Positions 1,740 through 20,461 of a stretch of DNA of 30,081 bases are shown one piece after another (within the stretch, counting starts at the first letter, position 1; each line of letters starts with the position of its first letter). The notes beneath the pieces were generated by a model. The model was given only the letters and a program-made list of their open reading frames with translations. It did not search any database and was not told the origin of the DNA. This DNA comes from a virus. Made by a program: the position numbers and the translations under genes. The stretch covers positions 1-30,081 of the IMG/VR virus record IMGVR_UViG_3300031753_000031; one strand, given 5' to 3'.

Positions 1740-2839
1740 TGCATCCTATAAGTTACGCTTGCATTGATTAAGCCACCGTTGGTGCAACCACTTTCGAGCA
1801 CTGTCTTACGCATATCCAGAACGTGACCGCTGGGTGCATTTTGAGTCACATTAACAGCATAAGAGCCAGTGCCGCTCGTTAAAGCGATGCTGGCTCCTGT
1901 AATGGTCGCGCCTGCGGTTTCATCGTAAATGACGAAAGTAGGATAGGGCGAGCAACCGCTGGCGGATGGTATTTCAGAAATTCTAAAAACCTCAATTACG
2001 ATGGCTCCGCCACCAGTGTCCATAAGGCCAAGAGCAAAGTTGGTTCCTTGCGCATTCGTACATGCACCTGGGCCGCAAGCCACTGAATTCCACACCATAT
2101 TAGGAACATTAGTTATCGTAACTCCGCCTATGGTTGGCGTGGTAAGCGCGGCGCTCCCTATCGTGGGAGCGGTGCCAAATACCGGCGCACCCGTTCCCGT
2201 GGCCGGCGTTACAAAGGCAAAAGTCACTGCCGGTGTTGTTGTTGGATTGGTCACGGAAGTAGTGAACAGAGGACTAAGATTACCGATATTAAAATTGGTA
2301 ACCGTGCCCGATCCAGGCAGGCCGTTTACGGTACCCGTAAACGTTGTCGTACCATTGATGTTTACTGCCCCATTAAACGTTTCCGTGCCTGCGTGGGATT
2401 CGTTGCCCGTCCAGGCATTATTAGCTCCTAGAAATGGCGGCGGCAGAACAAAGTCCATAACACGTTGTTGTGTTCCGGTTGCACAGTTCACGCCGCCAGA
2501 GCTATACACCACAAAGCGATAAGCATTGGCCGTAAGCCAAATACCGGATGGCGGGAAACCGCCTCCGTCAAGGATTATCGGATCGCTATTTTGGAAGCTG
2601 CCCGTCGAATCCGTGTATGTGGCTAACGGAGTCGAAGTTCCCGCCATGTAAGTCCATACACACCCGTTTGCGATTGGTACTCCAGTTCCAGAATCAAATT
2701 GTTGGTAAAACCAAGGTGCAAGTGCTACAGGGGTTTGACTATAGACATGCAGTTGTGGTATAAGTAAAGACACTATGAGAATAGCGAATATGATAAATAA
2801 GAGTTTCAGTCGATTAACAGTTCTTTCATTTGCTGGCAT
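1736..2839 (-). CDS. Tail appendage/fibre protein, N-terminus rebuilt beside HNH insertion
   Basis: 367 aa as read from ATG 2839, with a GGGAG Shine-Dalgarno 7 nt upstream. From residue 36 it shows the phage tail-appendage pattern [31 protein letters not shown], then a conserved D-G-G segment. A Ser/Thr/Gly-rich shaft follows, then a beta-rich C-terminus ([20 protein letters not shown]). Residues 10-35 look like a signal peptide ([20 protein letters not shown], then LHVYSQ), but this part is encoded antisense to the 5' end of the HNH gene and its promoter. The original leader seems to be the fragment at 3285-3362, joining in frame at Gln35. The start is therefore likely secondary. Confidence 0.7.
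2735..2764 (+). promoter_or_regulatory. Sigma70-like promoter of first HNH gene
   Basis: TTGACT (2735-2740), an 18-nt spacer, and TATAAG (2759-2764) preceded by TG-G, an extended -10 pattern. The expected transcription start falls at about 2771-2774, right at the ATG at 2775. The same bases encode the signal-peptide end of the fibre gene on the other strand. Confidence 0.6.
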
Positions 2840-3287
2840 AGGAAGCTCCCGTCAAGCTCTTTGGAAATGTAAATGCCAGTGCGGAAACACAATCGTGGTA
2901 ATCGGTACAAGCCTCAGAACGGGCAACACAAAAAGCTGTGGATGTCTTTTGAAAGATGTACGTAAAGAAAGGCCAAGCAATCTCAGGCATGGCTGTGCTA
3001 GACCTGGAAAACAAACAGCCGAGTATAGAATTTGGAACACGATGCGCTTTCGTTGTGAAAATCCCAAAGCTGAAAAATGGCCAAATTATGGTGGAAGAGG
3101 TATTAAAGTTTGCAAACGGTGGAAAGTATTTGTCAATTTTCTCGCTGATATGGGAAAGCGACCGCCGAAACTCACACTTGAACGTATAGATAATGATGGA
3201 GATTACAAGCCATCTAATTGCAGGTGGGCTACAGCCAAAGAACAAGCTAACAATCGCAGGCCAAGAAAAAGTAAACGATAATATTTG
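2738..3287 (+). mobile_element. 550-bp HNH insertion splitting a fibre gene
   Basis: The segment is bounded by TTTG on both sides (2734-2737 and 3284-3287). It holds only the HNH gene and its promoter. If it is removed, the minus strand reads codons for ...YVSHAQ joined directly to [11 protein letters not shown] in one frame, restoring a secreted fibre protein that is ATGA-coupled to the upstream gene. With about 507 bp of the segment coding, there is no room for a group I intron ribozyme, so this is a free-standing insertion. Exact ends are ambiguous by a few bases. Confidence 0.6.
2775..3281 (+). CDS. HNH-type free-standing homing endonuclease 1
   Basis: 168 aa. The N-terminus carries a four-Cys ribbon (CKCQCG ... 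SCGCL) after the usual FSRLTVL strand. The middle has [14 protein letters not shown] and [15 protein letters not shown]. The C-terminus has the HNH-like core [19 protein letters not shown] followed by [10 protein letters not shown]. This is the small phage HNH/AP2-like nuclease family, expected to nick or cut DNA for its own spread. It is encoded against the late operon and lies within a split fibre gene. ATG 2775 is preferred over 2790 because the -10 box ends 10 nt before it and the N-terminal length then matches the two paralogues. No Shine-Dalgarno is seen. Confidence 0.85.
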
Positions 3288-3362
3288 TGCATGGCTCACA
3301 TAACCAAGAGTGGCGAGCAGTGCTGCTACGAGGGCGATAGAGAGGATGCGGAGGAGTTTCAT
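3285..3362 (-). pseudogene. Orphan signal-peptide fragment of split fibre gene
   Basis: The ATG at 3362 overlaps the TGA of the upstream ejection-type gene as ATGA, exactly as at other junctions in this operon, so it is likely still translated. The 26 codons encode a classic signal peptide: MKLLRILSIALVAALLATLG followed by YVSHAQ. The frame then runs into the antisense of the HNH gene and continues to 2826 with no sensible protein. The natural continuation is codon 36 of the fibre gene at 2734. Confidence 0.7.
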
Positions 3363-4174
3363 TTCACGATACCCAATTCTTGAAGCGTGCGATATGCAGC
3401 TGAGCCGCCAGCCCCAAGAAGAGCGCCGACGCCTGTTGTAATTGCCGCTTTCTTTCCAAGCTCTATGGCCTTATCTGTGAAATCGCTTATCGTTGAAGCC
3501 CCCTTCCATTCACTCATGGCATCACGATATTTACCAAGCACACCACCCTGATCTGCCACATCATTTAAAGCATTTCCGAGAGATTGGGTCCATTGCCCTA
3601 GGGCCGCTTGCATACGTGGAGTCATTTTCATTATTTCTTCAGGTGAAAGCTTGCTAACTGCCGTGCTGTAAAAATCACGTATCTCATTAAAAGTTGGAGC
3701 GCCTTCTGGATATTTCTCGGTATTAATAGTCCTATCGATGAAATCTCCAACTACTTTAGGCATTTGCAAGCCTGATTTGGCAAGTTGGGAAATCCTCTGC
3801 GTGGCATCGGAAAGTTCATCTGTCATGCCAACCGTGTGATCGCCAACAGCATCCTTGACTTGCTCGAATTTTTCAGAGGCGGCAGCAAAACTAGGAAGTA
3901 GGCTTGTAAGCCAAGGAGTTGCGGCCGCCGCACCACTTGCAGCAGCCACTACGGGAGCTGCCTTTAATCCAGTAACTACATCTTGATTGATAGGACTAGC
4001 TGCACGCATCTCAGGTGTGATTCCAGGTTGTGCCATCGCATTTCTACGAACTGCAGGGCCAGGTGGTTTAGGTGCAGAGATAGCTGCCCCACCATAAGCG
4101 GTGAATGGATCAGGAGGAGGAGCCCCTAGCGCCGCGCCGCCATAAGCGGCAAACGGATCATTGCCTGGTGGCAC
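3359..4174 (-). CDS. Putative internal/ejection virion protein
   Basis: 271 aa from a GTG start with AGGA 8 nt upstream; it overlaps the previous gene by 17 bp. The N-terminus has a duplicated motif, DPFAAYGGAALGAPPP then DPFTAYGGAAISAPKP, found in proline/alanine-rich heads of podovirus inner proteins. Helical stretches follow, and a glycine/alanine-rich hydrophobic segment near the C-terminus (AAITTGVGALLGAGGSAAYR) could insert in a membrane. It follows two other ejection-type genes, matching the place of P22 gp7/gp20/gp16-type proteins. No direct family match is claimed. Confidence 0.6.
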   Translation of the reverse strand: MPPGNDPFAAYGGAALGAPPPDPFTAYGGAAISAPKPPGPAVRRNAMAQPGITPEMRAASPINQDVVTGLKAAPVVAAASGAAAATPWLTSLLPSFAAASEKFEQVKDAVGDHTVGMTDELSDATQRISQLAKSGLQMPKVVGDFIDRTINTEKYPEGAPTFNEIRDFYSTAVSKLSPEEIMKMTPRMQAALGQWTQSLGNALNDVADQGGVLGKYRDAMSEWKGASTISDFTDKAIELGKKAAITTGVGALLGAGGSAAYRTLQELGIVK

Positions 4175-6860: not shown

Positions 6861-7136
6861 CTAGAACGTTGCTATCGCGACTCGTTTCCATGTGTTCTTT
6901 GCCACCGCAATGTAGAGAAAGTTACCATCCGTAGCGATCTGCCCTGCAACCCCGGGCGATGCTGCCGTCGCTGGCGGTGTCAAACTCACCGGAGACAGTA
7001 ACTGCGCCGCTAATTGCACGAATTGCTTCACCCATTCACGGCCCACAAGATTAATCAGCTTGCCATCCTGGGAAGCGCGAAGAAATGCCGTGTTGTATAT
7101 GCCCGTACCGGCGAATGCTGTAGGTTGTTTAGCCAT
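6861..7136 (-). CDS. Small tail-associated protein
   Basis: 91 aa. It is polar and beta-rich, ending with DGNFLYIAVAKNTWKRVAIA, a C-terminal pattern often seen in small phage tail or fibre-associated proteins. No function is recognised. It begins right after the second HNH insertion. Without that insertion its ATG would follow the gp10-like gene by a few bases, so the two were probably once adjacent. Confidence 0.55.
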   Translation of the reverse strand: MAKQPTAFAGTGIYNTAFLRASQDGKLINLVGREWVKQFVQLAAQLLSPVSLTPPATAASPGVAGQIATDGNFLYIAVAKNTWKRVAIATF

Positions 7137-7146
7137 GCTAATTCAC

Positions 7147-7175
7147 TTGTTCCTGCGGGTTTATTGTGGTAGAAT
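7147..7175 (+). promoter_or_regulatory. Promoter-like boxes of second HNH gene
   Basis: TTGTTC (7147-7152, weak -35), a 17-nt spacer and TAGAAT (7170-7175) preceded by TG-G. The ATG starts 7 nt after the -10 box, which places the transcription start at the start codon. The GTGGTA before the box is shared with the first HNH gene. Confidence 0.45.
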
Positions 7176-7182
7176 CTAAAAG

Positions 7183-7704
7183 ATGAGTAAACTTATAGAT
7201 CTCTCTGGAAAGAAGTTCAATAGACTTCGCGTAATACAAAGAGGACCAGCAACGAAAAGCGGGGAAACTACATGGCAATGCATTTGTCAATGCAGTAAGC
7301 TGGTAACTGTCCAAGCCCAAAATCTTAAGTCTGGTCATACCAAAAGCTGTGGATGCCTTGAAAGGGAACTGACTATAAAAAGGAATTTTAGACATGGAGC
7401 AACTGTTCGCGGCAAGCATTGGCCAGAATACTTTGTTTGGAATACAATGCGAGCACGATGTGAAAATCCTAAGTCTATAAAGTATAAAGATTATGGACAA
7501 AGAGGAATAAAGATTTGTAAACGATGGTTGAAATTCACCAATTTTATCAAGGATATGGGAAGAAGGCCAACTTCTCAACATTCTATAGACAGAATAAATA
7601 ATAATGGTAATTACACACCATCTAATTGCCGATGGGCTACCCGCTCTGAGCAGCAGCTCAATAAAAGAGCATGTAGAATTAAGCGACTTCCGCATATTGT
7701 TTAG
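7183..7704 (+). CDS. HNH-type free-standing homing endonuclease 2
   Basis: 173 aa, a paralogue of the genes at 2775 and 18244. Order of parts: KKFNRLRVIQRG, Cys ribbon CICQCSK ... SCGCLERE, FVWNTMRARCENPKS, YKDYGQRGIKICKRW, then [28 protein letters not shown]. It has the same antisense orientation to the late operon. The conserved domain ends at about 7675 and the tail-hub gene stops at 7679, so the last 26 bp overlap that gene's 3' end. No Shine-Dalgarno is seen and a leaderless transcript is likely. The ribbon has CSK where the first paralogue has CGN. Confidence 0.85.
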   Translation: MSKLIDLSGKKFNRLRVIQRGPATKSGETTWQCICQCSKLVTVQAQNLKSGHTKSCGCLERELTIKRNFRHGATVRGKHWPEYFVWNTMRARCENPKSIKYKDYGQRGIKICKRWLKFTNFIKDMGRRPTSQHSIDRINNNGNYTPSNCRWATRSEQQLNKRACRIKRLPHIV

Positions 7705-9214
7705 AGAGCCTCTTTTTGCCAACAGTTAATCCAGGCTCCGCGTCCAAATAAGCATCTATGATGCGCACTGGAACAGGATCTGAGCACGTCAACTCGTACA
7801 CGCGGTCCCTGGAACGCCCTAACCTGCGCCAGATAGCGCGCGTGCGATACTTGCCTGCCTGCCCAAAGCCAACATCTCTACCGCTCGACCAATCGTGTCC
7901 GCCATCATCGGAATATCGCAAAGTAAGCATAGGGTCGCGCGGATTGCCAGCACCATCTAGCAAGGGCGGTTGCGGACCTAGGCCGGTTTCGATATCCACC
8001 CAAAGATAATTGTGATAAATCCATTGACCTTCAGTTGAGACGTGAGGAGCACGTCTCAACCTACGGATTATCGCGCCATTATCCGTGACAAAGTTCCACC
8101 CGCCCCCGGAAACGGTAGGCAGCGACATCTGATAAATGTTCCCACTTTGCCGGTCGCCAACCAAATGCTTGCCGAAATTAAAAGTATGATTCTGTGACAA
8201 TGCCGCTTGATAAATACCGGCCTGCGCGAACCAAAAACCACGCTCGGCCCACAGACCCGTAGCGGCATCATAGGCCCATGTTGCCTGTGCCGAAGGAAAG
8301 GTAATCACCCAAAACGTGTGCCCACCATCCTGGTAGGTAAACGCTCTTGCATCGGCCAGCGTTATATAGCTCTGCCATGCCGTCTCGACGGCATGGTTGC
8401 TGACACGCACAGGCTGATAACCATTGGCTCGCCAAGCTATGCCCCATCCTTGATCGTTGCGAGCGCCAATCCAGAATATCGAGTTGTCCATTTGTACTGT
8501 AGCAAACTGAGCGCCGGAGCCTTGCTCAACGAAACCGCCAGGAGATGTAGCCAGCGGCACTGGCGATGTTCCAGCGTCATAGTCTACTTCGGAAGCCCTT
8601 GCGCCAAGCAAGTACAGCTCTCGATGATCAACGATTGCCGAGACAACATTATCTGGAAAAGTGTTTATGGTCGTAGTGTTAAGCGCTGGCCAACTGGTAG
8701 CATCGAACAAGGTGGACGTAAAATATTGCTCTGCGGAAGCGATGATTGCGATAAAAAATCCATCCAAGTAAAGTACCTGGCTAACCGGCCCTGGAAACGT
8801 CACCGCTGGCACACTGACAAATGTTCCTGCGAGAACAGGGCCAATAGCCTTAAGGTAATACACATAGAGCATGCCAGCCGTAGCCATGGCCAATTGCTGA
8901 GGACTAGCGCACATCGATGCAGGTTGTCCATCATTGGCAACCGCTCCAAGCGCTGTATAAGTTCCGTTAGATTTAACTTCGTAAAGCTGCGCATCCACAA
9001 CCGCAAAAGACCTTCCGTTAATCGTCCATTCGCCGCGTACCTGCGCTCCAGGTATAGCAGCAAACATACTCAGACCTGGAGTCCCATAAAGCTGGCGGGC
9101 TGACTTGCCATCTCCTGATTCATTAACTTCAACATAGAGATTAATGCAGCGCTGTGCATCGGCATTGGGCGACTGTGACGAATATGTGGGGCCGACAAAC
9201 CCAAAGCGGCTCAT
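7679..9214 (-). CDS. Packaged-DNA stabilisation/tail hub protein, P22 gp10-like
   Basis: 511 aa (P22 gp10 is about 470). The N-terminus GFVGPTYSSQSPNADAQRCI then NLYVEVNESGDGK, followed by LYGTPGLSMFA, is the signature of the gp10-like family, which closes the portal channel and anchors tail parts. The body is a repeated beta pattern (AVVDAQLYEVKSNGTYTALG, YLLGARASEVDY). The C-terminus RRLGRSRDRVYELTCSDPVP is also typical. The ATG overlaps the upstream TGA as ATGA, with AGGGA 4 nt before it. The 3' end overlaps the second HNH gene but appears complete. Confidence 0.8.
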   Translation of the reverse strand: MSRFGFVGPTYSSQSPNADAQRCINLYVEVNESGDGKSARQLYGTPGLSMFAAIPGAQVRGEWTINGRSFAVVDAQLYEVKSNGTYTALGAVANDGQPASMCASPQQLAMATAGMLYVYYLKAIGPVLAGTFVSVPAVTFPGPVSQVLYLDGFFIAIIASAEQYFTSTLFDATSWPALNTTTINTFPDNVVSAIVDHRELYLLGARASEVDYDAGTSPVPLATSPGGFVEQGSGAQFATVQMDNSIFWIGARNDQGWGIAWRANGYQPVRVSNHAVETAWQSYITLADARAFTYQDGGHTFWVITFPSAQATWAYDAATGLWAERGFWFAQAGIYQAALSQNHTFNFGKHLVGDRQSGNIYQMSLPTVSGGGWNFVTDNGAIIRRLRRAPHVSTEGQWIYHNYLWVDIETGLGPQPPLLDGAGNPRDPMLTLRYSDDGGHDWSSGRDVGFGQAGKYRTRAIWRRLGRSRDRVYELTCSDPVPVRIIDAYLDAEPGLTVGKKRLSKQYAEVA

Positions 9215-11523
9215 AACATCCCTGCTCTTCCTGTGGCCACCGGAGCTCCTAAATTAGGGCACGTCCCCGATTGCGGAAGTAAGAAGCAGCCCACTCCTAG
9301 GCCGTTCGGCAAGGCACCACGCCAAGCAAGGAACAGGAAAGACGAACGATAACCTTGCGTGTAGGTCTTGCCAAAAAACTTGATGCCAATGTTTGTGGGT
9401 TCAAGGACGCAAGAGTTGAACATTGTATCGCCTTCGAGTTGATACTTCTGCTGACCTGTTACCGAGTACAGCCACGCATAGCCCATAGCAATAAGGTTAT
9501 TCAAATCTTCCAGGACGGTGCCTCCCTGCCCAAACTCCTGTATTGCTCCCCATCCGGCCTGACGCAAGCTAGTCCATGTACGAATTTCGTAAGGCGGCGC
9601 TCCGGCCGCTCCATTCCACGGCACCCAATAATTGTTCCACCAATGATCAAGAGCCGCTTGAACTGCGGAGGGCACGCGCGTATCGCCATTGCCAGTGTTG
9701 GGATCGAGGTAAAAGTCGATAGAGGACTGAACGAGCAAGCCAAGCATGAACGATTCTTCGAGAACAGTAGGATCATCGTTCGTGTACTGGTCTAGGATTC
9801 CGAGAACGTAAGCGGCCATCGCGTTGACTTGTGCCAGCGTGGTTGTGCCGCCGCCTAAATCGTAATCGAGCCGTTTCGCCTCAAGTTGCTCCGCTGCCTC
9901 TCGGGCAAGATCACCACTAGCAAAAGGAAGGATGTTCGTGACCATCGTTCCACCACAACAATGGGGCAGCGCGTGAACGCCAGAGCACGCTGTCGGAGTC
10001 CCGAAATTCTTACACTCGTAGAAAAGCCCCTTGGAGAAAATGTGGATTTGTCCGCCATTTCCACTCCAAACAGTGTCCGGTCCCGTTATGTGAAAGTTCG
10101 CATATCTCTGATCGCATTGGCTTGCCGCCTGAACCCAGGGGATCGACTGGTTGAGGTACATCCCTGTCTGGTAGAACACCCATTCGGCATCGTAGAAGCC
10201 AAGGCCAACGTTTCCGTAGGCGCAGATAATGGGGGTTCCGCCCGGAGTTCCTGGCGTCAGGTAATAGTTCAAGCCGACGCTGGTCAGATAGCCTTGCCAA
10301 GTTGAAAGCGACGGAATGGGCGGTTGGCTCGGCGGAGTTCCGGGCACGAATGTCGATGTGTTGACGTTCATCGCCCACGTGTAGGTGTGAGTTGTGGGCG
10401 TGGCACCGGCCTTGACCGTGAGTGTCAGCGTGTAGCTGCCGACCGGCGTCGTCCCGCCTTGGTTGGTGAGGATTTCAAACTGCTCGGCATTGGCGAATGG
10501 CGACGCACTGCCAGAGCCTAGATCACTACCGCCGTTTAAAGTGAGCGTGTCATCTGCAGTGGTCGTGGTGCTGACCGTCCCGATTCCGGCTCCGTTATCC
10601 TGCTGATCGGGCCAGTGAACCTTGGAGTTTGTAGGGATGCCGGTAATCTGAAAGCTGACGTTGTGGCCCTGAATGTCCGTGACGCCAACCAAATCCCACG
10701 TGTAAAACATCACGTACATCGGGAAGCCTTGCAGGATGTTGTGAGGACCGTTCATCTGCACGCTAAAATCCGCCGTCCCCGCCGAAGCTGCGCACGCGGT
10801 CGCAAACTCGAAACTTCCAGAGGCAGGGTCGTTCCATGAGAAGAGATAATCCGCAGGAGCGCCTGCAACGATTCCACGCCCCATGAAGTAAATAAAATAT
10901 CGAGTACAGGCCGCTAGACCGCTTAGCGGAACCGAGTGCGAGGTCGTCCCCGTCAAATCCGTTTCCGTTGTGCAGCCACTCTCGGCGGTCAGTGAAGCTC
11001 CTGGAGTCCCTTTCGGGAAAGCGTTTCCAAAGCCGTAGCACACTTGCGAACTGGTCGCCACGCTGCTCGTCCAGGTGCAGGTGACACTAGTAGTCGTCGG
11101 AGTCGGGCACGCTTGCGCCGAATACGTCGCGGGGCTGGCTGTAACGACGGGGAAAGCAATCGTCCCACTGATCGCCATGTTGTTATTCGCGTCGGTGACT
11201 TTCAGCGTGAAGGACACATCCCCTGCCGTAGTCGGCGAGCCGCTTATGACGCATCCGCCCACGGGCGTTGAGGTCGGGGTGACTGCCGACAAGCTCATTC
11301 CTGCCGGAATCGAGCCGCTGTTGACCGCGCACGTAAACGGCGGCGTGCCGGTCAGGATGTTGAGAACCATCCCGCCGATGCCGGTATAGCTTGACGCTCC
11401 CGGCGTCGGGTTGTAGTCGCTGCTCTGAGTGGGATACACAAACGTCGGAATGCTTAGCGTCACCTGAGAAAAGGCCGGCAGCGTACAAAAGAGAAATATG
11501 ATTACCAGTTTAATTGGACGCAT
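9211..11523 (-). CDS. Large secreted Ig-like protein with helical C-terminal domain
   Basis: 770 aa from ATG 11523 (ATG 11529 also possible). It has a signal peptide (MRPIKLVIIFLFCTLPAFSQ). About residues 45-130 form a putative-Ig (He_PIG-like) domain with FTCAVNSGSIPAGMSLSAVT and TLKVTDANNN; a Cys-containing fibronectin-like domain follows (CTWTSSVATSSQVCYGFG), then another beta domain ending in YTWAMNV. The last 300 residues are different: Trp/Tyr-rich and helical (AREAAEQLEAKRLDYDLGGG, WWNNYWVPWNGAAGAPPYEI), like an alpha/alpha-toroid fold seen in some glycan-processing enzymes. A tailspike or surface depolymerase is possible but not shown. It lies directly upstream of the hub gene. Confidence 0.6.
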   Translation of the reverse strand: MRPIKLVIIFLFCTLPAFSQVTLSIPTFVYPTQSSDYNPTPGASSYTGIGGMVLNILTGTPPFTCAVNSGSIPAGMSLSAVTPTSTPVGGCVISGSPTTAGDVSFTLKVTDANNNMAISGTIAFPVVTASPATYSAQACPTPTTTSVTCTWTSSVATSSQVCYGFGNAFPKGTPGASLTAESGCTTETDLTGTTSHSVPLSGLAACTRYFIYFMGRGIVAGAPADYLFSWNDPASGSFEFATACAASAGTADFSVQMNGPHNILQGFPMYVMFYTWDLVGVTDIQGHNVSFQITGIPTNSKVHWPDQQDNGAGIGTVSTTTTADDTLTLNGGSDLGSGSASPFANAEQFEILTNQGGTTPVGSYTLTLTVKAGATPTTHTYTWAMNVNTSTFVPGTPPSQPPIPSLSTWQGYLTSVGLNYYLTPGTPGGTPIICAYGNVGLGFYDAEWVFYQTGMYLNQSIPWVQAASQCDQRYANFHITGPDTVWSGNGGQIHIFSKGLFYECKNFGTPTACSGVHALPHCCGGTMVTNILPFASGDLAREAAEQLEAKRLDYDLGGGTTTLAQVNAMAAYVLGILDQYTNDDPTVLEESFMLGLLVQSSIDFYLDPNTGNGDTRVPSAVQAALDHWWNNYWVPWNGAAGAPPYEIRTWTSLRQAGWGAIQEFGQGGTVLEDLNNLIAMGYAWLYSVTGQQKYQLEGDTMFNSCVLEPTNIGIKFFGKTYTQGYRSSFLFLAWRGALPNGLGVGCFLLPQSGTCPNLGAPVATGRAGML

Positions 11524-12892
11524 AAACATAAGGAACCGCAGTGCGACTAGATTGATTTGCGATATTGGTGATGGTGATAGTCGCAGGCAAGACTCCCACA
11601 GTACAAGTATCGGTCGCGTCAACTCCCCAAGTATTAGCTGGTGTTCCTGCTCCAGCGTTGATCTGTTCCGCGCCAGAACCATAAGAAAGCAGTAAGACCG
11701 TGGTGTTGTCGGCACACCACGAAATATAGAAACTAGCTCCGGCTGCAAGCGTATAGGCGGCAGGCGTGAAACATTGCTCTCCTGTAGCCGCCGTACTGAA
11801 TGAACCCGTATGCCATCTTAACGTTCCGGTTCCGCCAGTAATCGAATACAAGCCTACGTCGGCATGACCGGCAGCGCTTAATGTAGTAATGAAAATACAA
11901 GCGTTTCCCAATTTGCGGGATAATGGATTGAAGAACCGCATGTACAGGCCTTGATTAGCGGTTATTAGATTGTCTCCAGGGTCCGCTCTGTTAGCAGGGT
12001 TATCTCCCAGGCCGAGAACATAGTTGCAACCAGACGTGCAGCCAGCAGCGGAAGAAACGTCTCCTGAAACGCTCAGGGTGTAGTTGAACCCGCTGTCCTC
12101 TACTAAAATATATTGCCCGCCCGCCGCGAGCGCGCAGGTATTTGCCAATGCCCCATTTGGCGTGCAACGAATCTGCGAAGCAGTCTGCCGTTGTAACGTT
12201 GAGGCTCCCCCTTGCACAATGATACCGATACTTACCGGGGGCACAAAGCAACCAGTGTTCCCATCGGGGATCGTAAGCGTCTCACCGCTCGCGTTCGTCA
12301 CACGTGAATAATTCCCGATATCTGTGCATCCGAAGGTATAGGAAGATTCTCCGCTTGCCCTATCAGTGATCGTCGCTCCTGGTAACGAATATACTAGAGG
12401 TCCAGCCACGCCTCCAGTGGGTGTTGAAGTTAAAACTTGAGCGCGGGTATTCGGGGTGGTGGGGCCATTGGGAAGTCCTCCAGCCGGTCCCGGAGGGCCT
12501 TGCGGCCCTGTATTTACCCCGGTGCTAATCGTCACACTAACTTGGCCACTGGTAAATGCCGAAACCCGCACACGAATATCAGTTAATCCGTTGGTCGCAT
12601 ATGTCGTCAATCCTACAGACGATAAAGTTGCGACAATTGTAAACGTAACACCATTATTGCCAGACTCTTCCACGAGCGCAGTAGCTGAGAATATTCCAGC
12701 CAAAGTTATAGCGGAAGTATTAGCATTAAAGGGAAGCTTCATCCATACACAACTGAACACCACGGAACAATCCGTGCTCGATGCAATGAGATTGCCGCCT
12801 TGTGGATTGGTGAAGGTGCCTTGCTGACCTTGAGAAAAGGCAGAAAGGACTAAGCCAAATAAACAAATAATAGTGAGCAGGATATGTTTCAT
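11510..12892 (-). CDS. Secreted fibre-like protein with collagen-like segment
   Basis: 460 aa. The ATG is preceded by GAGGA (5-nt spacing), which overlaps the previous stop. There is a signal peptide (MKHILLTIICLFGLVLSAFS then QG). A beta domain follows (VWMKLPFNANTSAITLAGIF), then a short collagen-like stretch GPQGPPGPAGG near residue 135, typical of phage fibres, then TLTIPDGNTGCFVPPVSIGI and a beta-rich C-terminal domain with several Cys. It is likely a fibre or adhesin. Export by Sec is suggested by the leader. The 3' end overlaps the next gene by 14 bp. Confidence 0.65.
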   Translation of the reverse strand: MKHILLTIICLFGLVLSAFSQGQQGTFTNPQGGNLIASSTDCSVVFSCVWMKLPFNANTSAITLAGIFSATALVEESGNNGVTFTIVATLSSVGLTTYATNGLTDIRVRVSAFTSGQVSVTISTGVNTGPQGPPGPAGGLPNGPTTPNTRAQVLTSTPTGGVAGPLVYSLPGATITDRASGESSYTFGCTDIGNYSRVTNASGETLTIPDGNTGCFVPPVSIGIIVQGGASTLQRQTASQIRCTPNGALANTCALAAGGQYILVEDSGFNYTLSVSGDVSSAAGCTSGCNYVLGLGDNPANRADPGDNLITANQGLYMRFFNPLSRKLGNACIFITTLSAAGHADVGLYSITGGTGTLRWHTGSFSTAATGEQCFTPAAYTLAAGASFYISWCADNTTVLLLSYGSGAEQINAGAGTPANTWGVDATDTCTVGVLPATITITNIANQSSRTAVPYVYASN

Positions 12893-17331: not shown

Positions 17332-18195
17332 TTATTGACCGAGCCTGTACCATTTACCATCAGGCCCATTCCATATCCAACATTGCATGGAACCAACGAC
17401 AGCACCCGCTTCAGAGCTGCCGATATTGTTTCCAGCGGTGGTTAGAAACACGCCCGTAGGAATAATGCAAAATTCCCCACCGGCTTGAGTATTTGCAGTA
17501 GCGTTTCCATTAAGTCCGATAGCTCCGTTTCCAGCAAATGTGAACGAAGTTATTGTAGCTGTACCGGAAACTTTAAATACCGGACCTGGAACCGCCAATG
17601 CAGCTGCTGACGCCACCGTTGCGAAACTCGCCCCCATTGGCAGCAAAGGATTATTAAAACCGGGCTGCCAAGTTAGCGATGTTGGATTGCAAATCCACTG
17701 CGCTCCTGAACGAACGTTAACCCAAGGGCTAACGACTACGTTATTCAAGACGCAAGTGGTATTGCTGATGTATCCAGGAACGGCAGTCGTTCCGCCTGGA
17801 TCGAAGGCATAAAACCAGAACGGCTTGCCAGCCAGCACCATCGCTCCGGTAAGATGCGGAGAAGCTGGCGTACCATTTACGCCGCGCACTACCGTAAGCG
17901 TGGTGCCATTTACGGCAATCACATACATTTCTTCACGGTCAATGTACAGTGCCGTCTGATTCGGCTGCGAAGCCGTAACACCAAGATTGGGGTTGATGCC
18001 CACAATACCCGTTGCACTGGCAACTTGAATCAGAACTGGAGCGGGCGACAATGGAGTTGTGCCTTGCCCAATGACGTTGCCAGCCACGGAAGCGGTGAGC
18101 GTGGTTTGAGTAAGGTAGTTTTGCTGCGCGCTTGCGATAAACGGGGCGCACAACATCAGAACTGCCATAAGAAGGTACTTACAATGGTTTTTCAT
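17332..18195 (-). CDS. Secreted beta-rich protein downstream of capsid gene
   Basis: 287 aa from ATG 18195; the frame is open further upstream, but that part is only the antisense of the third HNH gene. A signal peptide is present ([19 protein letters not shown]). It continues [12 protein letters not shown] and [20 protein letters not shown] then [13 protein letters not shown], a pattern typical of phage head-associated beta proteins, and ends [15 protein letters not shown]. It may be a decoration or fibre-type protein, and the leader is unexpected for one. AAGGA lies about 13 nt upstream, a loose fit. Confidence 0.65.
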
Positions 18196-18230
18196 GGTAT
18201 TTTTCTGTTCCTTTTTGTCTCGATTCTTTA

Positions 18231-18236
18231 TATACT
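18231..18236 (+). promoter_or_regulatory. -10 box of third HNH gene
   Basis: TATACT ends 7 nt before the ATG at 18244, the same spacing as in the second HNH gene. No good -35 is seen. It suggests a leaderless transcript. Confidence 0.4.
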
Positions 18237-18243
18237 TGTCCCT

Positions 18244-18771
18244 ATGGGTAGACCACCACTGCTCCACTTGCAAGGACAACGATTTGGTCGATTGACTGCA
18301 TTGACCTACGTTGCAAGCAAACGATGGCTGTGCCAATGCGATTGCGGACAACAAGTAATTATCCGCACGTGCTCTCTTCAGAGTGGCTGTAGCAAATCTT
18401 GCGGTTGCCTTCAACGTGAATTGTTGAGCGCACGACGCAAAACGCATGGCGCTACAAAATCCCCTGAATATGCTGTTTGGCATCACATGAAACAGAGATG
18501 CACAGACCCTAATCACCCGGCCTACAAAAATTATGGGGGGCGAGGAATTACGATCTGCACTCGCTGGCTTCATGATTTCGCTGCCTTTCTTGCTGATATG
18601 GGAAAACGTCCGAAGGGATTGACCCTTGAACGAATAGACAATGATGGTGAGTATTCGCCCAATAATTGTAAATGGGCTAGTTACTCGGAACAGATTAAGA
18701 ATCGCAGACCTTCTAGGCACAGAGAACCCTCCCGCAGCACGCATCGGCATACAGTTGACCGAAACCGATAA
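18244..18771 (+). CDS. HNH-type free-standing homing endonuclease 3
   Basis: 175 aa. Parts in order: [20 protein letters not shown], Cys ribbon CQCDCG ... [41 protein letters not shown], then [20 protein letters not shown] and EQIKNRRPS. It is a paralogue of the genes at 2775 and 7183. ATG 18244 is preferred over the much longer upstream frame because the family starts here. The conserved domain ends at about 18710 and the capsid gene stops at 18713; the remaining codons are antisense to the capsid C-terminus. It lies against the late operon just after its most conserved gene. Confidence 0.85.
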
Positions 18772-20062: not shown

Positions 20063-20461
20063 TTATGCTGAATTCCTTGGAAACATTGCTATAGTTCGTG
20101 GGCATTTTACCCTACCCCAACGAACGCGAGCCTTTTCACTTGGAGTCAGTCGTAAACTTGCTTTAAACAGAACAATCTTAATTTGTTCTTGTCGCCTCTC
20201 TCCCAATAGTGGCATTAGCTGCTGTGCCAGACTTACAGCTTGATCGCCACCAACATAGGCCGTCCATGACGGTTTCCTATTTGGACGCTTCCTAAAATAT
20301 GGCCCATAAATCCTTCCATCCATAAGCGCGGCAGCGTGTTCAATTACATCCCGATCTGTCATTGATATCTTAAGACATGGAGAGTTGCTACGACTATCTT
20401 TACGACAGCAACCTTCGCCTTCAAAAAGGCCAGCAAGCCAAGCCAATTCTACGTCTGTCAT
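20063..20461 (-). CDS. Single-motif LAGLIDADG homing endonuclease
   Basis: 132 aa. Residues 7-18 are AWLAGLFEGEGC, a clear LAGLIDADG motif (LAGLFEGEG) with the catalytic acidic residue in the usual place. It is followed by the family strand LKISMTDRDVIEHAAALMDG and then YFRKRPNRKPSWTAYVGGDQ. There is one motif only, so it should act as a homodimer and recognise a near-palindromic site. Its ATG overlaps the TGA of the scaffold gene (ATGA). It is in the same direction as the late operon, unlike the three HNH genes, and lies between two genes that are adjacent in P22-like phages. Confidence 0.8.
   Translation of the reverse strand: MTDVELAWLAGLFEGEGCCRKDSRSNSPCLKISMTDRDVIEHAAALMDGRIYGPYFRKRPNRKPSWTAYVGGDQAVSLAQQLMPLLGERRQEQIKIVLFKASLRLTPSEKARVRWGRVKCPRTIAMFPRNSA

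Follow-up and report, generated by a model that had tools for sequence, protein, structure and literature searches.

An antisense HNH gene inserted at the leader boundary of a phage fibre gene, with a predicted replacement leader on its reverse strand

Results

The window, meaning here the whole 30,081-nucleotide stretch of viral DNA analysed (positions 1 to 30,081 of IMG/VR record IMGVR_UViG_3300031753_000031), contains a 168-residue HNH endonuclease gene, HNH1 (2775–3281, plus strand; PHROG family phrog_374, E 8e-62), which lies antisense to a structural operon. On one side of it is a fibre-like gene of the minus strand (1736–2839), with a new start at ATG 2839 and a mature part from 2737 downwards, which is 61% identical to the fibre of an uninserted relative (L001, see below) and whose protein also distantly matches annotated tail fibre and tail spike proteins. 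On the other side lie the orphaned original leader, MKLLRILSIALVAALLATLGYVSHAQ (3285–3362, minus strand), with 5 nucleotide differences from the L001 leader in 25 codons, and the gene upstream of the fibre (3359–4174, minus strand), to which the orphan leader is ATGA-coupled. The preliminary description of this DNA had placed a coupled start at 3362 and a continuation of the fibre from a CAA codon at 2735–2737. Both are present: ATG 3360–3362 overlaps the upstream TGA, encodes the orphan leader and then runs into antisense HNH sequence.

That description read the locus as a secreted fibre gene split by the HNH gene, and proposed a search for an uninserted allele in relatives. Scanning IMG/VR with the fibre protein, we found one in IMGVR_UViG_3300050821_001947 (L001; L089 for the whole contig), where leader and fibre occupy one frame. 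In blastn, L001 5919–6010 matches window 3376–3284 at 90% and L001 6007–6525 matches window 2737–2219 at 81.5%; the two flank matches overlap in CAAA only (4 bases), and the insert is therefore 550 bp long. Blastn and direct comparison place these extra bases (2738–3287, no strand assigned) between two copies of TTTG (CAAA), one on the fibre side (2734–2737) and one on the orphan-leader side (3284–3287), 550 bp apart as had been claimed, and the insert ends can slide within this 4-bp repeat. Deleting the 550 bp fuses ...GTGAGCCATGCACAAA with CCCCTGTAGCACTTGCA in a single frame, in agreement with the rejoining predicted earlier, and L001 has both flanks fused without the insert. The insertion point is the boundary between the secretion leader and the mature fibre. 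The insert consists of the HNH1 ORF and about 40 further nucleotides, 37 nt 5′ of the ATG and a few 3′ of the stop, which is 3 bp from the insert end.

The close fibre relatives (L001–L004, L093 and L094) each have one leader and one uninterrupted fibre gene, so that a second leader with a separate short gene in HNH-less relatives, which had been named as evidence against a split, was not encountered. At loci with a clear leader, this continues unbroken into the conserved fibre domain, and a profile search found an HNH gene at none of the ~86 other fibre loci fetched, the same profile recovering all three HNH genes of the window as a positive control. Because an empty allele exists and the leader and fibre of the relatives are uninterrupted and HNH-free, the split-gene reading is right with regard to the insertion; the word 'split', though, undersells the outcome, as the mature fibre is intact, with a replacement start and leader that derive from the insert. 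A DNA search of the phages collection for relatives returned HNH matches only, and a scan of genome contigs with the fibre pair found no relative of the pair.

On the right flank, 11 of the first 13 codons after the junction are not those of L001, every change being synonymous (window 2737–2660, minus strand), a codon divergence exceeding that of most of the remaining aligned part; on the left flank, 5 differences are spread over 25 codons. The divergent right flank is possibly a co-conversion tract or a cleavage-resistant flank. DNA similarity to L001 ends at window 3376, close to where the orphan leader begins, and the upstream gene (3359–4174) is strongly unlike its L001 counterpart, which suggests a recombination boundary at the fibre start.

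HNH1 is 48% identical to two further HNH genes of the window, HNH2 and HNH3, which match phrog_374 at E 4e-61 and 9e-65, respectively; Pfam gave zero matches at 0.01 in the HNH family check. It has the properties of a free-standing HNH gene, namely an HNH family sequence, a gene-free site in relatives and a position outside any intron or intein. HNH-less sites are present in L001/L089 for HNH1 and HNH2 and in L438–L440 for HNH3. From what is known of the family, HNH1 is a putative homing gene that probably cuts fibre alleles lacking it and spreads by repair. Its nearest relatives in genome contigs reach at most ~50% identity over most of their length, and thus no near, leader-less HNH1 donor was found among them.

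The downstream half of the fibre gene does not lack a head: it opens with an ATG of its own (2839) and a complete leader, MPANERT...VYSQ (2735–2839, minus strand), wholly inside the insert and antisense to HNH1 codons 1–21 and the 37-nt 5′ region; 5′ of this ATG, the sequence GACGGGAGCTTCCT (2840–2856, minus strand) includes a candidate ribosome-binding site, GGGAG. The fibre gene is complete instead of broken because the reverse strand of HNH1 supplies a new start and a predicted secretion signal. By eye and by hydropathy, the new leader has the features of a Sec signal, with a positive N-region, a hydrophobic core and small residues at −3 and −1 (V-Y-S/Q), and its end falls on the residue where the old leader ended (S-H-A/Q). 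We infer that it would export the fibre. It would be unusual for a tailed phage to export virion proteins. Sec-type leaders ending in Gln (SFGQ, AFSQ, ASAQ) are found on the structural-module proteins at 774–1739, 1736–2839, 9211–11523, 11510–12892 and 17332–18195, and the fibre proteins of many relatives likewise bear Gln-ending leaders of this type.

For comparison, the corresponding antisense frame was translated for 59 HNH homologues and the best 11-residue hydropathy scored. HNH1 ranks first of the 59 at 3.73 (runner-up 2.78), and is alone in combining a start, an open frame and a core >3.0 (1 of 177 homologue × frame trials). In the leader stretch the HNH family consensus usually has D5, G8, R/K10 and G12, while HNH1 has N, N, S and S at D5, G8, R10 and G12, changing S, P, R and P of the leader frame to F, F, L and L; an HNH glycine codon always reads as proline in the leader frame. 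These replacements hint, weakly, that the leader may have exerted selection on the HNH1 sequence, the loss of conserved sites having p 0.04 in a weak test and both glycines being lost in 4 other homologues as well. When HNH1 was recoded synonymously, 29% of the recodings yielded some in-frame start, and 4% of those with a shuffled 5′ region yielded a leader core ≥3.0. Because 4% of recodings reach such hydrophobicity, the leader could have arisen by luck and then been retained by selection.

The orphan leader does not end at the insertion point but is open through antisense HNH1 as a 178-residue ORF (bridge ORF 1; 2826–3362, minus strand), whose stop (TGA, 2826–2828) gives a 14-nt overlap with the new fibre ATG. 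HNH2 (7183–7704, plus strand) is an antisense insertion between a head-closure gene and the next gene, with an empty site in L089, where the flanking genes are adjacent and an RBS, AAGGAG, stands right before the ATG. Bridge ORF 2 (7138–7695, minus strand) starts at ATG 7695, overlapping the stop region of the upstream gene, and ends in TAG-C-ATG (7136). Across this insertion (window 7136–7728 compared with L089 11144–11195), the coupled junction of L089 is lost, and the AAGGAG of the next gene is replaced by the TAG-C-ATG junction with the antisense frame. HNH3 (18244–18771, plus strand) is inserted antisense between the major capsid gene and a secreted gene, with empty sites in L438–L440, and bridge frame 3 (18196–18750, minus strand) traverses HNH3 antisense without a stop and shares its frame with the secreted gene downstream (ATG 18195). 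At the HNH3 site (18195–18771), the capsid and secreted genes are a few to ~30 nt apart in L438, L439 and L440. A LAGLIDADG-type homing endonuclease-like gene (20063–20461; PF14528, E 8e-7) immediately precedes the capsid gene on the operon strand, as a fourth mobile-type nuclease within 30 kb.

In a codon-aligned reverse frame, stops arise solely from the codons TTA, CTA and TCA. The reverse frame is free of these throughout HNH2 and HNH3 and over codons 19–168 of HNH1. With the codon usage of the window, the chance of zero antisense stops is 0.030 for HNH1 codons 19–168, 0.0084 for HNH2 and 0.0019 for HNH3, giving a joint probability of ~5e-7 for three stop-free antisense frames in this phage.

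We examined antisense HNH genes in other phages in two non-redundant sets of 154 and 152 HNH loci, with neighbour orientation judged from ORFs, not curated genes, and with several choices made post hoc. In the first set, 19 genes run antisense to both neighbours, and 10 of them have no stop on the operon strand; of the 70 sense genes, 2 are stop-free. Neighbour codon usage predicts 1.9 and 5.0, respectively. Openness alone was not significant in the second set (2/12 antisense versus 1/60 sense; adjusted p 0.3, Fisher 0.07), and over all loci minus the window its adjusted p is 9e-5. With end codons ignored and the window included, stop-free genes number 16/31 antisense versus 2/127 sense. In a geometric test, from which the window was excluded, the two other frames at the same loci served as controls for the bridge frame. 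Among open bridge frames, 6 of 17 have an ATG no more than 5 nt from the upstream stop, versus 1 of 34 control frames (p 0.004), and 8 of 22 have a stop at the downstream ATG, versus 1 of 46 (p 0.0003), the latter mostly at second-set loci; among closed bridge frames, flush ends are not enriched. The general claim thus replicated in geometry, not in openness alone.

Compared pairwise, open loci are 45% identical in the HNH frame versus 25% in the reverse frame, and HNH is therefore the conserved reading. No known family was matched by the bridge products tested; of the flanking genes tested, several have matches among the structural, terminase or helicase families of phages. With only 2 supported pairs, a tree-based test of independent pairs was without power, and open-antisense HNH needs 13 changes on an unsupported tree; 398 bacterial genomes added only 14 HNH loci. 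At L374:558–1086, as at HNH2, an antisense HNH gene lies beside a head-closure gene (phrog_578); the bridge frame at L374 is flush with its neighbours on either side. The tightly flanked antisense HNH gene at L249:2994–3561 has nine stops in the operon-strand frame and is a counterexample to the bridge idea.

Discussion

The insertion, the new start with its leader, the open reverse frames and their flush ends can be read directly from the sequences, and they are quite probably best explained by antisense insertion of the HNH gene at the leader/mature boundary, a leader derived from the insert and a bridge frame crossing it. We propose that a free-standing HNH gene entered the secreted fibre gene antisense at this boundary, and that the reverse strand of the HNH 5′ end provided the severed fibre with an in-frame ATG and a complete predicted signal peptide. 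The frame of the orphaned leader continues through antisense HNH as a 178-codon bridge, and because the stop of this bridge overlaps the new start of the fibre, ribosomes arriving from upstream could traverse the insert and reinitiate at the fibre. Their passage may keep the operon mRNA covered against Rho, such that Rho-dependent polarity would be prevented and coupling kept. Bridge-type anatomy is shared by HNH1, HNH2, HNH3 and some antisense HNH genes elsewhere.

The new leader and open antisense frame could instead be by-products of composition with no role, the fibre working by chance or being poorly made. We regard this as rather unlikely. The T-rich antisense of the start region readily encodes hydrophobic residues, in-frame starts and strongly hydrophobic leaders do arise among recodings (29% and 4%), and openness alone was not replicated in the second set; composition would nevertheless have to produce three stop-free antisense frames (joint probability ~5e-7), bridge ends flush with their neighbours far above control frames, the second set included, and a new leader ending at the residue of the old one. 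It is also improbable that a donor phage already had HNH1 between two genes, upstream of a fibre with the MPANERT...VYSQ leader, and that the old leader is a remnant left when this donor recombined with an L001-like phage. Such a swap would account for the flanks, 11 of 13 codons differing synonymously on the right and 5 differences in 25 codons on the left, and the divergent tract fits donor DNA brought in with the element, as in co-conversion by T4 endonucleases (PMC2988022). However, no relative with the new leader was found, L001 being the sole match to the junction peptide of the rejoined fibre among viral contigs in a degenerate search. The leader is moreover antisense to the HNH coding start, where a donor would need the identical overlap, and the CAAA ends and 4-bp overlap fit simple insertion.

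HNH genes are often found in introns, and the flanks here rejoin exactly and in frame, as expected if a group I or II intron or an intein with HNH were spliced out to restore the fibre. We give this almost no credence: no Rfam intron match was obtained in the window and the ~40 nt beyond the ORF leave no room for a ribozyme, and in addition the HNH gene is antisense to the fibre, its frame contains no intein and the fibre has its own new start. An assembly chimera of HNH-bearing and fibre-bearing contigs would explain why the inserted allele is carried by one contig only, but is very improbable given that both flanks match a single relative, in which they are collinear and abut exactly, and that HNH2 and HNH3 are inserted in like style in the same contig; frame coupling at both ends would then be coincidence.

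Insertion with an insert-derived leader and a bridge frame would make the two alleles a before-and-after sequence pair, in which a selfish gene appears to break and simultaneously repair its own target. Whether antisense homing endonuclease genes in phage operons generally turn 'ambigrammatic' is to us an even call; synonymous choice would clear their reverse stops, their ends would come to fit the neighbours and ribosomes would pass, and at the fibre site the reverse coding would have become a secretion leader. A readable reverse strand is thereby suggested as a general way for operons to tolerate antisense insertions and, if this is true, overlapping coding would be selected for ribosome passage and not for its product. 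It offers a simple rule for spotting such genes, namely no TTA, CTA or TCA together with flush ends. In a literature search that was thin on subscription journals, we found no report of a split with a replacement leader, or of an open reverse frame for antisense endonuclease genes.

A split of nrdA by mobE, in the Aeromonas phage Aeh1, was reportedly described by Friedrich et al. in PNAS in 2007. Known cases include this split of nrdA and mobA in T4 gene 60 (PMC2988022). As at Aeh1 nrdA/mobE, a free-standing HNH gene lies in the window inside a structural or essential coding sequence that is unsplit in relatives, with function thought to be kept. In Aeh1 both halves of nrdA are translated and must reassemble, whereas here the insert is antisense at a leader boundary, a replacement leader is present and the mature fibre is one piece. 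Of the hallmarks of genes in pieces, the locus thus shows insertion into a gene that is whole in relatives, but not two reassembling polypeptides.

The free-standing seg and mob endonucleases of T4 contain embedded host promoters (PMC2988022), and in both systems the endonuclease gene carries signals needed by its neighbours, favouring its retention; in T4 these are promoters for downstream genes, while here they would be a start codon, a signal peptide and an open frame on the opposite strand. New coding from the reverse strand of an existing gene is also a feature of laoB, an antisense overprinting in E. coli, although laoB is reportedly a short new gene (PMC5810103), and here a leader is joined to an old protein. 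An intact reverse frame is required by the ambigrammatic narnaviruses, which avoid UUA, CUA and UCA (PMC8316113). In them, as here, a codon-aligned reverse frame is kept open, and it is translation itself, not the product, that is proposed to matter (PMC8316113). The narnavirus frame spans an RNA virus polymerase of >3 kb, whereas ours runs through the endonuclease of a DNA phage, is open mainly where the gene is antisense in an operon, and has ends fitted to the neighbouring genes.
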